Source of the DNA: Isosphaeraceae bacterium
GTDB lineage: Bacteria; Planctomycetota; Planctomycetia; Isosphaerales; Isosphaeraceae
Direction of reading: 5' to 3'
Assembly (NCBI GenBank): GCA_025356475.1
Contig: JANXSX010000048.1
Span: forward strand, 1 to 64,000
DNA length: 64,000 nucleotides
Shown: positions 49,238-55,984 of the stretch, piece after piece
Numbering within the stretch: the stretch's first letter is position 1
Layout of the letters: every line of letters begins with the position of its first letter
The notes under the pieces: generated by a model
What the model saw: only the letters and a program-made list of their open reading frames with translations
What the model was told of the DNA's origin: nothing
Databases searched by the model: none
Made by a program: the position numbers and the translations under genes

Positions 49238-52200
49238 TCAGCGAGCTCCGGCCAACTCGCCCTGGACGACTTTCGGCTTCTCGGTCGAGGGGCCGCCAGC
49301 CCAGTCGATCAGGATCGGGCTTGCGATGTACACCGTGCTATACGTTCCCGAGAGCAGACCGATGACCAGCGAGAAGGCGAAACCATGCAAGCCTTCACCA
49401 CCGAAGACGTAGAGGATTAACACAACCAACCACGCGGTCAAGGCGGTCAAGATCGTCCGGCTCAAGGTCTCGTTCACCGCATCATTGATCATCTTGGCCG
49501 TGAGGATCGGCGTCTTTCCCTTGATTTCGCGAATTCGGTCGAACACGACGATCGTGTCGTTGACCGAGAACCCGATCAAGGTGAGGAAAGCGGCGACCAT
49601 CGGCAGATCGATCTTGAACGGAGCGAGCAAAAGCCCTGGTCCGAAGATCGGGATTTGCGAGAGCCAGAATGTGGCAGCGACACACCCGAGCGTAATCAGC
49701 ACGTCGTGAATGACCGCCACGATCGCTGCCAGTCCGTACGTCAAGCTCTTGAAGCGGAACCAGAGGAAGGCCGCGATAATGACCCAACTCGCCAAGTTCG
49801 CGAGAATCGCCAGAGTCTTCGTCTCGCCGGCGACCACTCCGCCGAAGTTTGTGAGCCGTTCGAACAACAGGTTTGGATCGTTCGAGAGGGCCGTTGAGAG
49901 CGCCTTGAGTTGAGCTTCGGCGACCTCTGGCTCAAGATCTGTCCGAATCACGAGGTTCGGAGCCTCAAAGTCCGTTGGGGCTCCGGCGGGGGACTTGGGA
50001 TCGAGGACCTCGAAACGGGTTGTTGGATTCAGGACCGTAGCCGCATCGAGAACTTTGACGAAGGATGCGGCAACGACACTAGGGCGTTGGGGTACGTTGA
50101 GTGTGATCGGGTACTCACGGCCACCGGCGAACCGACTTATCAGAGTGGAACTGGCCTTGGGATCCGACGGAGGAATGGGGGTAACGGTTCCAACCGTTGT
50201 GGAGACGCGTTGGAGTGCGGGTCCAAACTGGCTGAGAACCACCTCCCGAACCTTCTTTTCAGCCTGTTCCGTCGTACGAATATTGAAGCGGAGTCCGGTC
50301 GCCTCACCGGCGACGTTCAGGCTCTCCACCGTCACGTCGGGGAGAACGCTGGTTTTTTCCCGTACGAAGGCGGACCGGTCGTTCGGGCTGAGAGCCTGGA
50401 CTTGTGGGTCCGAGCCATTGAGTCGGATCGTGACAAGCGTTCCACCCGTGAAGTCAATATTGAGCAGGCCATTTCCGCGAAGGAAGACGGCCGTAAGCCC
50501 AATCAGGATCACGATTAACGACCCAAGCTGGCAGGCCTTCCGAGCACCGATAAAGTCGATGTTCGGTCGTTCCATGATCTTCATCATCTTGAGCTTCTTG
50601 AGGAAGCCGTTGTTGTACAAGAATTCGAAGATCACTCGCGAGACGAACACGGCGGTGAAGAGATTCCAAACCAAGCCAATGATCAAGGTGACTGCAAAAC
50701 CTTTGACCTCTTCGGTCCCCACATAATAGAGGACGAAGCCGGAGAGGACCGTGGCAAGATTGGCATCAAAGATCGGTAGCCAAGCTCGATTGAACCCGTT
50801 ACGGATCTGTTGCGACATCCCCGCGCCACGTTCTTGTTCCTCTCGCATTCGCTCAAAGATCAGCACGTTGGCGTCCACCGCCATACCGATCGTTAGGGCC
50901 AACCCCGCAAGACCGGGTAGTGTGAAAGTCGCCTGGAAGAGAGCCATCGAACCAAGGAGAAGGATCAGGTTCATGAACAGTGCCACGACCGCGATCACTC
51001 CGGCGACCCGGTAGTAGACAATCATGAAGATGGGGACCACCAGCATTGAGATCCAGATCGCCCGGACCCCCTTGGCGATCGTGTCTTCTCCCAGGGTCGG
51101 CCCAACCTTATCTTCCTGGAGAGGCTCGGGGTTGAGACTGGCGGGGAGGCTCCCTGCGTTCAAGATCTCCGTAAGTCGCGCTACATCCTTTTGACGGAAG
51201 CCTTGTCCCCCCCCTTCAATGATGCCGGAATCGCGAATCTCACTGTTGATGGAGGGAGCGGACATGACCAAGTTGTCGAGCAAGATCGCCAACTGAAACT
51301 TAAAGCTGTCCTGCTGAGGGAGGTGCTCACGAGTGAGTGTTCCGAACTTGCGGGCACCGACCCGGTCAAACTTGAAACCCACAGCAGGCTGGAGGCGCTC
51401 GTCCTGGGTGGCATTCACCCCAGCAAGGTACTGACCTGAGACGTTCTGGCGATCCTCGTTAACGAGGATGTATCGCTCTGTCACGCCTGGGGCGATCTCT
51501 TGTTCCCGCACGATATGATCGCTTGGGAGTTCCGAACCCGGCAGCGGGGTCTGAATGTCACTTGGGTTGAGATCGACACGATAGGAGGTAATCGAGATCA
51601 GCGACTTGGGCACCGCGCTCAGAATGAACGTGTTACTTGTATTGCCCACGACCTCGAATGACTCGGTGCGTTCGGTACCAGCAGCATCTTTGCCGGTCAG
51701 GACGATGCGTGCATTTGAATAGACGTCGCGGACGAGTCGCTTCGAGGCATCGGCGATCGTGAGCAGGCTCTTGTCGAAGGTTGGGTTGGTTCCTGAGACA
51801 GTTCCGCCCAATTTCGCCCAGAGGTATCGAGCGGGCGGTTTGCTCAAGCCTTCCTTACTCATGGCCCGGTCGATGGCCGTCTTGTCGTTCTTGCGCGAGG
51901 CCAGAATTCGGAACTCCAGCGCTCCGACGGTCGTCAGCTTACGCTTGACCTCGTCAACAACCTCGGAGTCGGCTTCCGGAAGGATGATCTCGATGCGATT
52001 TCCACCGACCTTGCGGATCGGGATGTCGAGCACGCCGTTTGGGTTGACTCGCTTCTTGAGGGCACCGATCAGTTCGTCAATGCTGAAGTTGCTCGGCAGG
52101 TTCTGGGTCCGAACCTCGTAGACCAGGATGGTTCCGCCCGAGAGATCGATACCGAGTTTGAGCTTTTCCCGAGGTGGGTAGCACAGCACGGTTCCCGCCA

Positions 52201-52258
52201 GGGTCAACCCAATGATGAGGGCGGGCTTCCATCCGATGAAATTCTTCAGCCAATTCAT
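49238..52258 (-). CDS. secDF: Fused SecD-SecF protein-export membrane protein
   Basis: A 1006-residue fusion. The SecD half starts with a helix (PALIIGLTLAGTVLCYP), has the P1 head (LKLGIDLSGGTILVYEV and NPNGVLDIPIRKVGGNRIEI) and ends with VGPTLGEDTIAKG and helices. The SecF half begins near FIGARKACQLGSLIVILIGL with NIDFTGGTLVTIRL and ends in the conserved SLSRTILTALTAW-type helices. A large extra periplasmic insert lies between the first SecF helix and the rest. It uses the proton-motive force to assist Sec export. The start at 52258 has AAGGA upstream. It follows yajC by 132 bases. Confidence 0.96.
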   Translation of the reverse strand: MNWLKNFIGWKPALIIGLTLAGTVLCYPPREKLKLGIDLSGGTILVYEVRTQNLPSNFSIDELIGALKKRVNPNGVLDIPIRKVGGNRIEIILPEADSEVVDEVKRKLTTVGALEFRILASRKNDKTAIDRAMSKEGLSKPPARYLWAKLGGTVSGTNPTFDKSLLTIADASKRLVRDVYSNARIVLTGKDAAGTERTESFEVVGNTSNTFILSAVPKSLISITSYRVDLNPSDIQTPLPGSELPSDHIVREQEIAPGVTERYILVNEDRQNVSGQYLAGVNATQDERLQPAVGFKFDRVGARKFGTLTREHLPQQDSFKFQLAILLDNLVMSAPSINSEIRDSGIIEGGGQGFRQKDVARLTEILNAGSLPASLNPEPLQEDKVGPTLGEDTIAKGVRAIWISMLVVPIFMIVYYRVAGVIAVVALFMNLILLLGSMALFQATFTLPGLAGLALTIGMAVDANVLIFERMREEQERGAGMSQQIRNGFNRAWLPIFDANLATVLSGFVLYYVGTEEVKGFAVTLIIGLVWNLFTAVFVSRVIFEFLYNNGFLKKLKMMKIMERPNIDFIGARKACQLGSLIVILIGLTAVFLRGNGLLNIDFTGGTLVTIRLNGSDPQVQALSPNDRSAFVREKTSVLPDVTVESLNVAGEATGLRFNIRTTEQAEKKVREVVLSQFGPALQRVSTTVGTVTPIPPSDPKASSTLISRFAGGREYPITLNVPQRPSVVAASFVKVLDAATVLNPTTRFEVLDPKSPAGAPTDFEAPNLVIRTDLEPEVAEAQLKALSTALSNDPNLLFERLTNFGGVVAGETKTLAILANLASWVIIAAFLWFRFKSLTYGLAAIVAVIHDVLITLGCVAATFWLSQIPIFGPGLLLAPFKIDLPMVAAFLTLIGFSVNDTIVVFDRIREIKGKTPILTAKMINDAVNETLSRTILTALTAWLVVLILYVFGGEGLHGFAFSLVIGLLSGTYSTVYIASPILIDWAGGPSTEKPKVVQGELAGAR

Positions 52259-52390
52259 GAGAGTTCCTTGCGGCCCGTTGCTCGCGAACGAATGTAGCAA
52301 GCCTCGCGACGGTTTCGAGTCGAAGGCGACAGGTCTAACGAAGTCGACGCAGGCCACACGGCCGCGCTGGATGCAAGTCCGAGCGGTCCG

Positions 52391-52783
52391 TTAGACGGAC
52401 TCGACGGCCTTGTCTTTGCTTTTCTTGGAAGAAGTGGAGTCGAGAACCTTGACGATGCTCGACCGGCTGAACGACATCTTCACGCCTCGGTCGTCGTCCA
52501 CACGCAGCACGACCTTGTCTTCGTCCTTGTTGATCGACATCACCGTCCCATAGATCCCAGCCCCGGTCAGCACTTCGTCGCCCTTGCTCATGGCGTCGAT
52601 CATCGCTTTGCGCTTGCGTTCTTGCTGTTGCTGGGGACGAATCATGAGGAAGTAGAAGACGAAGAGGACTGGCAGTAGGGGCAGCATCGGCGCCAGGAAC
52701 TGGGTCGTCGTCTGAGGGGCGGCCGGTTGGCCCGCTGCCTGAGCTAGGATCATGGTCGAGATGGCCAAAGACAAACCGAGCAT
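52391..52783 (-). CDS. yajC: Preprotein translocase subunit YajC
   Basis: A 130-residue single-pass protein. The transmembrane helix (LPLLPVLFVFYFLMIRP) is followed by the family signature RPQQQQERKRKAMIDAMSKG and GDEVLTGAGIYGTVMSI. It joins SecDF in the holotranslocon. The tgt-yajC-secDF order is the classic bacterial arrangement. The N-terminus is slightly longer than usual. Confidence 0.95.
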   Translation of the reverse strand: MLGLSLAISTMILAQAAGQPAAPQTTTQFLAPMLPLLPVLFVFYFLMIRPQQQQERKRKAMIDAMSKGDEVLTGAGIYGTVMSINKDEDKVVLRVDDDRGVKMSFSRSSIVKVLDSTSSKKSKDKAVESV

Positions 52784-52855: not shown

Positions 52856-53977
52856 CTATGGTCCTAACGCGCCTAGGACTTCTGATCGCAACTGGACGAA
52901 CCGGCCAGCCGTTATCGCCTCGCGAATTCGCCGCATGAGACGGTGAAGGTAGGCCAGGTTATGGATTGACGCCAAGATCGGGCCAAGCATCTCACCCGCG
53001 ACGAACAGGTGGCGAATGTAAGCACGACTGAACTGGAGGCATGCTGGGCAATCGCAACCAGGCTCAATCGGTCGGGAATCACCCCGATTTGTCGCGTTAC
53101 GCAGCTTCACCGGCCCTTCGTCCGAAAAACAGGTCGCGTTGCGTCCGTTACGGGTCGGCATGACACAGTCGAACATGTCGATGCCCGTTGACACGGCTTC
53201 GAGAATATCTTGGGGACGACCGACCCCCATCAGGTAGCGTGGCTTATCTGCCGGAAGTAAATGGGTCGAAGCCTCCAGAGCCAATCGCATCTCCTCACGC
53301 GACTCGCCGACGCTGACCCCTCCCACCGCGTACCCATCGAAGTCAATCTCGATCAGGTTGCGGGCACACCAGCCTCGGAGGTCCTCATGAGCCCCCCCCT
53401 GCACGATCCCAAAAAGTGCCTGATCAGGGCGAGTATGGGCGTCCTTACAACGTCTCGCCCAACGAACGGTTCGCTCCGTCGCATCGGCGATCGCGGCTTT
53501 CTCTGCTGGAAGCGCAGGACAATGGTCGAGGCACATGGCGACATCGGCACCTAGATCCTGCTGGATCTGGATCGCCCGCTCGGGTGTCAGGTCGAGGAGC
53601 CGCCCGTCGAGGTGAGACCTGAACGCCACACCTCGTTCGGTGAGCTTCGTTCGAGAGGAAAGGCTGAAGGCCTGGAATCCGCCGGAATCCGTGAGGATCG
53701 GGCCGTCCCATGCCATGAAGGAATGTAGCCCCCCCATGGTTGCGATCTCAGCCTCACCTGGCCTGAGCGCCAGGTGGTAAGTATTGGCCAGGACCATTTT
53801 GGAACCGACCCACTGAAGCTGGTCGGGGAGCAAGCCTTTGACCGTGGCCTGGGTGCCCACGGGCATGAAGATTGGCGTCTCGACCGAGCCGTGAGGGGTG
53901 TGAAACACCCCCCGGCGTGCAGAGCTACCGCTGTTGTCAACGACGGTGGTCTCGAACCACACGGGACGACCAGACAA
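52856..53977 (-). CDS. tgt: tRNA-guanine (queuine) transglycosylase
   Basis: A 373-residue enzyme that inserts the queuosine precursor preQ1 at position 34 of GUN tRNAs. ILTDSGGFQAFSLS carries an active-site aspartate, MPTRNGRNA follows, and the zinc site is CDCPACLQFSRAYIRHL. The start appears to be a TTG at 53977, 4 bases after the upstream gene's stop; the family N-terminus (FETTVVDNSGSSARRGVFHT) fits it closely. A GTG five codons further in is an alternative. It is co-transcribed with the alpha-CTD protein and yajC. Confidence 0.95.
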   Translation of the reverse strand: MSGRPVWFETTVVDNSGSSARRGVFHTPHGSVETPIFMPVGTQATVKGLLPDQLQWVGSKMVLANTYHLALRPGEAEIATMGGLHSFMAWDGPILTDSGGFQAFSLSSRTKLTERGVAFRSHLDGRLLDLTPERAIQIQQDLGADVAMCLDHCPALPAEKAAIADATERTVRWARRCKDAHTRPDQALFGIVQGGAHEDLRGWCARNLIEIDFDGYAVGGVSVGESREEMRLALEASTHLLPADKPRYLMGVGRPQDILEAVSTGIDMFDCVMPTRNGRNATCFSDEGPVKLRNATNRGDSRPIEPGCDCPACLQFSRAYIRHLFVAGEMLGPILASIHNLAYLHRLMRRIREAITAGRFVQLRSEVLGALGP

Positions 53978-53981
53978 CGGA

Positions 53982-55319
53982 TTACTCGTTCTTGAGCTTG
54001 AGGCTCAGCTCGGTGAGTCGCTCGCGTACTTCATTGAGCGAGGTGACACCGAAGTTCTTGCACTCGAGCAACTCATCCCCAGTGCGTGAGAGCAATTCCC
54101 CTACTGTGGAGATACCCAGCTTGGTGAGGCACTTGCGAGCCCGGACTGAGAGCTGGAGCTCACCGATCGGTCGGGCGAGCATCGCCTTCTCTTCCTGGGA
54201 AAGCTCCTGGGTCGGCTCGGGTGCAGCGGAAGTGTTGTGCTGGCCCCCTTCCAACGCAAGACCAAGCCAGAGTTGCTTGGAGTGCATCATCTCTTTGATC
54301 TCAGCGAGGGAGGTCTCGCCAAAATTCTTGGAGGCGAGCAAGGCAACTTCGGTCGCTCTCGTCAGGTCACCGAGAGTCCGGATATTCATCTTCCGCAGGC
54401 AGTTTCGACTCCGCACCGACAACTCGAAGTCGGTGACGGGGATCTCCATCAACTGACGCTTGATCGCGTTGTCTTTTTCGAGATTCTCGTCGTAGTACAT
54501 GTCACGGCTGGCGCGACAATCTTTGAAGAACAAGCGGGCCCGTGGGTGATTCGGCTCAAAGTTGAGGATCTGCCGGTAGCACTTCTCAGCTTCACGAAAT
54601 TCCATCCGGTCTTCGTAGAGCACCCCGAGGTTGATCAGGGCCGAAAGCGGGACGGGAGGCCGCTTGATGCATTCTCTGTAGAAGTCGAGCGCCTCGGCGT
54701 CATTTCCTTGCAGGTCATTGATATATGCGAGTTCGAACAAAGACCCGGTATGAGTCCTGTCCAAGGAGAGAGCCTTCTCGAACTCGCCGGCTGCAGCGAC
54801 CAGCTCGCCATCGACAGCCAGCAAACTCCCCTTCTGATAGTGGAATTCCGCAGACCCGCCGGCAAGCTTCTCAAGGGCGGCGAGCTGTTCGCGAGCCTTG
54901 TCAACATCACCCGAGCGACGAAGGGCACCCACCCGGCAAAGCTCTGAGTTGCGGGGGTCATAACCGGCTTTGGCGGCCAAGTCGAAGGATGTGGCGGCAT
55001 CCGGGAACCGCTGGAGGTTCTGCTGGGCGAGCCCTTTGAAATAGTAAGCAAGCCCGACATCGCCAGCCTTCTGGAGATGATCGACACCAACTAAGTAGCG
55101 GCCCAGCAGGACCTCGCCCACACCGATACGGAGCTGGAATTCGGCGGGGATCAAGGCCCCCTTATACTTGTCGCGGATCACTGCCACAGCATCGCGGAGA
55201 GTTCGGTAACGCGACGGATCGCGGCCAAGGGCTTCACGAAGGTCAGCAATCGCGGCGGCGTCAAACGGAGTGCGGTCCAGCAGGGTGCGGACGTCGTACG
55301 TCAAGGTCTGCTCGGCCAT
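53982..55319 (-). CDS. TPR protein with two RNA polymerase alpha-CTD-like domains
   Basis: A 445-residue soluble protein. Residues about 60-270 are TPR repeats (for example SALINLGVLYEDRMEFREAE). Residues 291-357 and 381-445 are two copies of an RpoA C-terminal domain: SVRSRNCLRKMNIRTLGDL...KNFGETSLAEI and SVRARKCLTKLGISTVGEL...KNFGVTSLNEV (shown in pieces). Compared with E. coli alpha-CTD, the DNA-contact residues R265, C269, G296 and S299 are matched in both copies (R303/R393, C307/C397, G334/G424, S337/S427); N268 is kept only in the first (N306), and K298 is Thr in both. It is not RpoA itself, as no alpha N-terminal domain is present. First gene of the tgt-yajC-secDF operon. Confidence 0.87.
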   Translation of the reverse strand: MAEQTLTYDVRTLLDRTPFDAAAIADLREALGRDPSRYRTLRDAVAVIRDKYKGALIPAEFQLRIGVGEVLLGRYLVGVDHLQKAGDVGLAYYFKGLAQQNLQRFPDAATSFDLAAKAGYDPRNSELCRVGALRRSGDVDKAREQLAALEKLAGGSAEFHYQKGSLLAVDGELVAAAGEFEKALSLDRTHTGSLFELAYINDLQGNDAEALDFYRECIKRPPVPLSALINLGVLYEDRMEFREAEKCYRQILNFEPNHPRARLFFKDCRASRDMYYDENLEKDNAIKRQLMEIPVTDFELSVRSRNCLRKMNIRTLGDLTRATEVALLASKNFGETSLAEIKEMMHSKQLWLGLALEGGQHNTSAAPEPTQELSQEEKAMLARPIGELQLSVRARKCLTKLGISTVGELLSRTGDELLECKNFGVTSLNEVRERLTELSLKLKNE

Positions 55320-55440
55320 CAGTGAGGCTCTCCCGGACGGACAGGCTAACGAAGTGCGGTCGGATCAGAAGAAATCGCTGCCAGATCGACGACCGAGTCG
55401 AAAAATCCTATCATACATACTGCGTAGCACTTTGCAACCT

Positions 55441-55472
55441 CAACTCTCGTATCTACAACCCTTCGAGAGTTG
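55441..55472. repeat. 9-bp inverted repeat between divergent genes
   Basis: CAACTCTCG (55441-55449) and CGAGAGTTG (55464-55472) are perfect reverse complements with a 14-base spacer. They lie about midway between the alpha-CTD gene start (minus) and queD (plus). It may be an operator for one or both. Confidence 0.45.
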
Positions 55473-55576
55473 ATGGCAACCCGGCTCGAATCTATGATTC
55501 TCTGATACTGCCTTGCAAAACACCATGAATCCGCGATCTTGGTCGCTCACGAAAGTCGCGCCTCTCAGGAGACAGC

Positions 55577-55984
55577 ATGTATAGGGTCGCCCGCGAGATT
55601 GAATTTTGCTACGGACACAGGCTGCTGAATTATTCAGGCAAGTGCAAGCATCTTCACGGCCATAATGGTAAGGCTGTGATCATGCTAGAGGGGGAGAGCC
55701 TCGACTCACGTGGAATGCTCGTCGACTTCACCGACATCAAGGTTATGGTTCAACGTTGGATCGACGAGAATCTCGATCACAACATGATCCTTTGCAAGGA
55801 TGACCCGCTCCTCCCGCTTCTCCAGGAGCGCGGTGAGCGGGTTTTCATCATGGAGCTGAATCCAACAGCAGAGAACATCGCCAAGCTAATCTATGATCAC
55901 GCACGAGAGGCCAAGCTGCCTGTCGTCGAGGTTGTGCTCTGGGAGACTGCCCATTGTCACGCGTCCTACGGGCAAACGAAGTAG
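55577..55984 (+). CDS. queD: 6-carboxy-tetrahydropterin synthase (QueD/PTPS family)
   Basis: A 135-residue enzyme. The zinc ligands are H14, H27 and H29 and the catalytic cysteine is C23 (GKCKHLHGH). The NPTAENIAKLIYDHA segment near the end is typical, with E at ETAHCHASYG. It turns dihydroneopterin triphosphate into 6-carboxytetrahydropterin on the queuosine pathway, fitting tgt about 1.6 kb away. GGAG lies before the ATG. The broader PTPS family includes biopterin-synthesis members, so the exact reaction is likely, not certain. Confidence 0.9.
   Translation: MYRVAREIEFCYGHRLLNYSGKCKHLHGHNGKAVIMLEGESLDSRGMLVDFTDIKVMVQRWIDENLDHNMILCKDDPLLPLLQERGERVFIMELNPTAENIAKLIYDHAREAKLPVVEVVLWETAHCHASYGQTK

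Follow-up and report, generated by a model that had tools for sequence, protein, structure and literature searches.

A TPR protein with two genuine alpha-CTDs is ancient and near-universal in Planctomycetota

The gene at 53982..55319 on the reverse strand of the window, the whole 64,000-nucleotide stretch of Isosphaeraceae bacterium DNA analysed here, encodes an ancient, near-universal and apparently single-copy planctomycete protein with two genuine copies of the RNA polymerase alpha-CTD. The first copy (CTD1) is under stronger constraint than RNA polymerase's own alpha-CTD.

The open reading frame fills exactly these coordinates, starts with ATG and specifies 445 amino acids, with every part lying on the reverse strand. 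A TPR region of about seven helix pairs (residues ~41–266, 54522..55199; placed by Pfam, AlphaFold secondary structure and the conservation profile) is followed by a TPR–CTD1 joint defined by the conservation profile (residues 269–280, RASRDMYYDENL, 54480..54515; family consensus A-S-x-x-M-y-Y-D-E-e). CTD1 (residues ~288–347, 54279..54458) and CTD2 (residues ~374–437, 54009..54200), both placed by Pfam, alignment and the conservation profile, are separated by a variable linker of low pLDDT (54201..54278; delimited by the same profile) that spans 19–54 residues in the family, with a median of 29. Pfam finds RNA_pol_A_CTD (PF03118) twice, with E values of 1.2e-19 and 2.7e-21; the score is 139 bits for the whole protein and 72.5 and 77.9 bits for the single domains, both of which exceed the curated cut-off of 23.8 bits. 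Several TPR families match over residues ~128–258, and TPR_1 passes its Pfam cut-off (51.6 against 27.8 bits). The alpha N-terminal domain, which serves dimerization and beta/beta′ binding, is absent from the Pfam list up to E = 1, and TPRs fill the N-terminal half. These matches bear out a first-pass annotation of the window, which had described a TPR protein with tandem alpha-CTDs and no alpha N-terminal domain.

The NCBIfam rpoA models align to the protein through its CTDs only, all well under their cut-offs (TIGR02027, 126.4 bits against a curated 227.8), and this, together with the absence of a listed alpha N-terminal domain, identifies the tandem-CTD protein as something other than a polymerase subunit. 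It is additional to a separate, complete RpoA of 332 aa, encoded on contig C77 (L001) of the same genome; PF03118 occurs at only three places in that whole genome, in RpoA and in the two CTDs of the tandem protein.

Among known systems, the RpoA CTD shares with the tandem protein its domain sequence and fold, the residues R265, N268, C269, N294, G296, S299 and E302 (E. coli numbering) in CTD1 and the acidic 259/261 patch. Unlike RpoA, the tandem protein has no alpha N-terminal domain, hence no polymerase assembly, and it carries two CTDs per chain on a TPR scaffold. Alpha-CTD-like regions outside RpoA are also found in the BREX PglW kinase (NF033442, 34.6 bits) and in the small stand-alone protein PRK07758 (NF005841, 33.6 bits). 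The tandem protein differs from the former in lacking a kinase domain, in its core-gene distribution and in falling far under the 990-bit cut-off, and from the latter, a one-domain model of 95 positions with no TPR, whose cut-off of 115 bits it misses. Streptomyces AfsR (SARP-NOD-TPR) likewise joins TPRs to a transcription module, as a TPR-containing transcription activator (PMC10936776), although its DNA-binding part is a SARP domain and not an alpha-CTD.

AlphaFold models, built on an alignment only three sequences deep, are of moderate confidence (mean pLDDT 74.6 for the full protein and 69.8 for the CTD half) and contain about fourteen TPR helices, a disordered inter-CTD linker and two alpha-CTD-like helix patterns; at a pTM of 0.38–0.49, they do not fix the relative placement of the domains. 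Because TPR matches dominate the full-length fold search, the CTD pair was folded apart. The matches of its model are to solved alpha-CTD structures; the top one is 9zum, the Caulobacter alpha-CTD on AT-rich DNA (0.6 Å over 65 columns, 46% identity), and further matches with DNA are 3n97 and 1lb2.

Our survey covers Planctomycetota, with 149 evenly drawn genomes, 88 of them of high quality. A whole-protein search found a homologue in 140 of the 149 and in 86 of the 88, at one place per genome, and most of the 149 hold three PF03118 domains. Those high-quality genomes without a whole-protein match have three PF03118 domains (G143) or one, in a 73-aa frame (G031). Some genomes hold more alpha-CTD domains than RpoA and the tandem protein would provide: six in G019 and G058, five in G063 and G121. 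The 82 loci that we extracted gave 83 proteins with that of the window; the protein is uninterrupted at all 82, two losing their start at a contig end, and exactly two CTDs are present in 83/83 tandem proteins, compared with one in 27/27 RpoAs. A scan of a genome collection for the protein returned two close relatives.

In a maximum-likelihood tree of 40 CTD1, 40 CTD2 and 28 RpoA CTDs (E. coli included) over sixty columns, CTD1, CTD2 and RpoA CTDs form fully separate clades with support of 99, 95 and 97, respectively. Duplication and fusion are thus older than the sampled diversity of Planctomycetota. A search of plasmid and phage records for tandem CTDs yielded, among the matches inspected, ordinary RpoA genes or genes so named. 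One candidate, a C. difficile 'plasmid' match, was rejected as a ribosomal-protein stretch with rpoA; the record (L147, NZ_CP033217.1) is filed as a plasmid, reads rpsK-rpsD-rpoA-rplQ and resembles a chromosomal fragment. We found no description of a planctomycete TPR/alpha-CTD protein in the literature within our reach, which lies mostly outside subscription journals.

Alongside R265 and N268, the alpha-CTD DNA-contact set comprises C269, N294, G296, K298, S299 and E302; in E. coli, the acidic patch at 259 and 261 contacts sigma region 4, and 285, 286 and 288 are the CRP contact positions. R265 and N268 are required for DNA binding by the E. coli alpha-CTD, and substitutions of N268 are damaging, with N268A and N268T abolishing alpha-CTD function (PMC11434276). 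Aligned to E. coli alpha, CTD1 reads R265-S-R-N268-C269 ... N294-F-G296-E-T298-S299 ... E302, CTD2 reads R-A-R-K-C ... N-F-G-V-T-S ... E, and the organism's own RpoA reads R-A-T-N-C ... N-F-G-E-T-T ... E. The first-pass claim that most DNA-contact residues are retained therefore holds in the window protein, and it extends across the phylum: the set RNCNGTSE, intact in CTD1 of the window, where R303 is the R265 equivalent, occurs in 74 of the 83 CTD1s and is also the commonest RpoA set (14/27). The sigma-contact patch is kept as well, with D/E at position 259 in 99% and E at 261 in 89% of CTD1s, and the 285/286/288 equivalents are also conserved.

The same annotation had singled out N268 and K298 as points at which both copies differ. 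Comparison with the organism's own RpoA, which it had suggested, separates the two: RpoA shares T298, and N268 is changed in CTD2 alone. The N268 difference thus stands for CTD2, which has K, and falls for CTD1, which keeps N268 by alignment. At position 298, T is present in CTD1, in CTD2, in the organism's own RpoA and in 92% of 27 sampled planctomycete RpoAs; since planctomycete RpoA has T as well, this residue is no divergence of the fused copies and, judging from the alignments, is a lineage feature. In CTD2 of the window, the N268 equivalent is K396 and the other contact residues are kept (R393, C397, N422, G424, T426, S427 and E430); across the family, 77% of CTD2s have K/R at the N268 equivalent and C269 is often changed too, with the R265, N294, G296 and S299 equivalents retained. 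Because DNA binding by the E. coli alpha-CTD depends on N268, the K/R of CTD2 is a real difference in kind, and given this replacement CTD2 may lack DNA binding in the usual mode.

In the 15 genomes with all three domains, CTD1s share a mean pairwise identity of 74%, RpoA CTDs one of 61% and CTD2s one of 48%; CTD1 identity is higher than that of the RpoA CTD in 99 of 105 pairs, the difference being 0.13 with a jackknife error of 0.02. Over the DNA-contact positions, column entropy averages 0.17 bits in CTD1, against 0.25 in RpoA and 0.82 in CTD2, the RpoA sample being a small set of 27 non-random sequences, mostly the best PF03118 scorers, a bias that if anything favours RpoA. Contact columns vary less than the other columns in all three (rank test, p = 0.0004 for CTD1, 0.0008 for RpoA and 0.004 for CTD2). 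Conservation is nevertheless not confined to these columns: the whole of CTD1 is conserved, DNA face and sigma patch alike, and in the TPR half, which has a variable start, the last three repeats (residues ~165–266) and the joint to CTD1 are conserved.

We infer DNA binding, a promoter role and a TPR partner from these comparisons and propose, with moderate confidence, that the protein is a promoter-proximal adaptor that binds DNA and mimics alpha-CTD; our confidence is moderate because conservation over the whole CTD1 surface, sigma patch included, cannot separate DNA from protein contacts. A core protein of Planctomycetota would then re-use the polymerase's DNA-reading tail outside polymerase. 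CTD1 would grip the minor groove of AT-rich DNA like a normal alpha-CTD. Tethered by a flexible linker of ~30 residues and carrying K/R for N268, CTD2 would also hold an adjacent minor groove, with lower specificity, so that the protein as a whole would imitate an alpha-CTD pair on an UP element. A partner protein would dock on the TPR superhelix, which is joined to CTD1. The adaptor would sit at or near promoters, where it would either help polymerase, a branch suggested by the acidic patch that CTD1 keeps and that contacts sigma region 4 in E. coli alpha, or hold alpha-CTD sites against RpoA. More tentatively, the protein may serve Planctomycetota as a core transcription factor: two covalently joined alpha-CTDs, detached from polymerase and carried on a TPR arm, would bind both UP-type DNA and sigma at a large number of promoters and take over part of RpoA's upstream DNA recognition. 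The protein would perhaps be essential, with the RpoA CTD under correspondingly weaker constraint.

Protein contacts could also drive the conservation of CTD1. In that case, which we consider rather unlikely, the tandem CTDs would be a protein-binding decoy or hub for sigma factors, activators or elongation factors whose usual contact is the RpoA CTD, with a regulatory partner added by the TPRs and DNA not the target. Conservation of all known CTD1 contact faces, including 259, 261 and the 285/286/288 equivalents, agrees with such a hub, as does the nature of TPRs as protein-docking modules. However, the rank test above places the DNA-contact columns among those that vary least in CTD1, and the basic residue that replaces N268 in most CTD2s favours nucleic-acid over protein contact.

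The gene stands at the head of a same-strand row, as first annotated: tgt (52856..53977) starts 4 bases past its stop codon and is followed by yajC (52391..52783) and a fused secDF (49238..52357), all on the reverse strand. Its place ahead of export and queuosine genes had been called unexplained; comparison of the loci largely resolves it as a remnant of a longer conserved cluster, headed by the tandem-CTD gene and usually continuing with ruvA, from which the intervening genes are gone here. ruvA is the commonest next same-strand gene, at about 50 of the 82 loci in many families and mostly within 3–240 bases (44 from BLAST clusters; four, L080, L093, L121 and L129, from a profile search; and two, L079 and L083, from RuvA coordinates). 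The full series ruvA-ruvB-queH-spoIID-tgt follows the gene at L090, L091, L095, L111 and L130; the series begins at queH in L109, at spoIID in L070, L073, L075 and L082, and at tgt in L034, L035, L066 and the window. Here queH and spoIID, like ffh and rpsP below, are names that we assume from reading the sequences of cluster members rather than from a profile result. The simplest history would be an old cluster running from the tandem-CTD gene through ruvA-ruvB-queH-spoIID-tgt-yajC-secDF, with genes later lost or moved. A functional reading of the tgt-yajC-secDF linkage was rejected, as the neighbours differ between loci and ruvA comes first in the fuller cluster; no queuosine or export link is needed to explain the position of the gene.

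The tandem-CTD gene usually leads its row, with upstream neighbours such as ffh and rpsP in the opposite orientation, and so probably has its own promoter. In the window, a sigma70-like promoter match, TTGCAA-N16-TATGAT, lies upstream of the gene (55410..55437, reverse strand; a match to consensus only). Directly upstream of the −35-like hexamer lies an inverted repeat (55440–55473) with perfectly matching 10-bp arms and a 14-base spacer; it was rejected as a family operator, being unique in the genome and absent upstream in the two closest relatives, and the region upstream of the tandem-CTD gene showed no conserved AT-rich or palindromic element. Beyond the repeat, a 6-pyruvoyl tetrahydropterin synthase-family gene, likely queD (55577–55984, forward strand), faces away, so that queuosine-type genes flank the tandem-CTD gene on both sides here.

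The frequent position directly before ruvA, few to ~240 bases away, would also suit an accessory of RuvAB or DNA repair that binds DNA near Holliday junctions, a role that we judge improbable. The window lineage carries ruvB and a diverged ruvA together on contig C196, and the gene stays with tgt-yajC-secDF, which weakens ruvA as an obligate partner; elsewhere the gene leads spoIID or queH without ruvA, the constant feature being its place at the cluster head. Moreover, alpha-CTD is a polymerase domain, and we know of no RuvAB partner that contains one. Negative results with RuvA_N and RuvA_C (PF01330, PF07499) had wrongly suggested that the window genome has no RuvA; a search with the RuvA of a class relative recovers it with 49% identity (L151, contig C196, 24250–24891). 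Class relatives themselves reach only about 23–33 bits with RuvA_N, and annotation may miss this gene.

Alpha-CTD contacts NusA, and an even less probable role would be to bridge elongating polymerase to the ribosome or NusA-like factors, with the alpha-CTDs making contacts during elongation and the TPRs contacting the translation or export machinery. The adjoining genes for tRNA modification and export fit such a bridge, as do coupled transcription–translation complexes among the fold matches, the latter only because alpha is part of them; however, it lacks direct sequence evidence, and the neighbours vary and look inherited from the old cluster. Finally, that the alpha-CTDs are a mere helix-hairpin module with no polymerase-related function, as the divergence of CTD2 might suggest, is very hard to credit, since CTD1 surface residues have not diverged in homologues, as the first-pass annotation had allowed they might, and CTD1 keeps the exact contact residues phylum-wide and is conserved more strongly than the CTD of the polymerase itself.

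To our knowledge, transcription in Planctomycetota has hardly been studied. Near-universal, apparently single-copy and with a CTD1 more conserved than that of polymerase, the protein makes a concrete candidate for a general transcription component that has so far been missing; its near-universality and the stricter conservation of CTD1 than of the polymerase's tail point to an unstudied core factor in how Planctomycetota read DNA. The tandem-CTD protein can be tested immediately in Planctopirus limnophila, which already has transposon mutagenesis and a genome-wide map of essential genes from a TraDIS study (PMC10632474), and it would show how polymerase domains get re-used outside polymerase.
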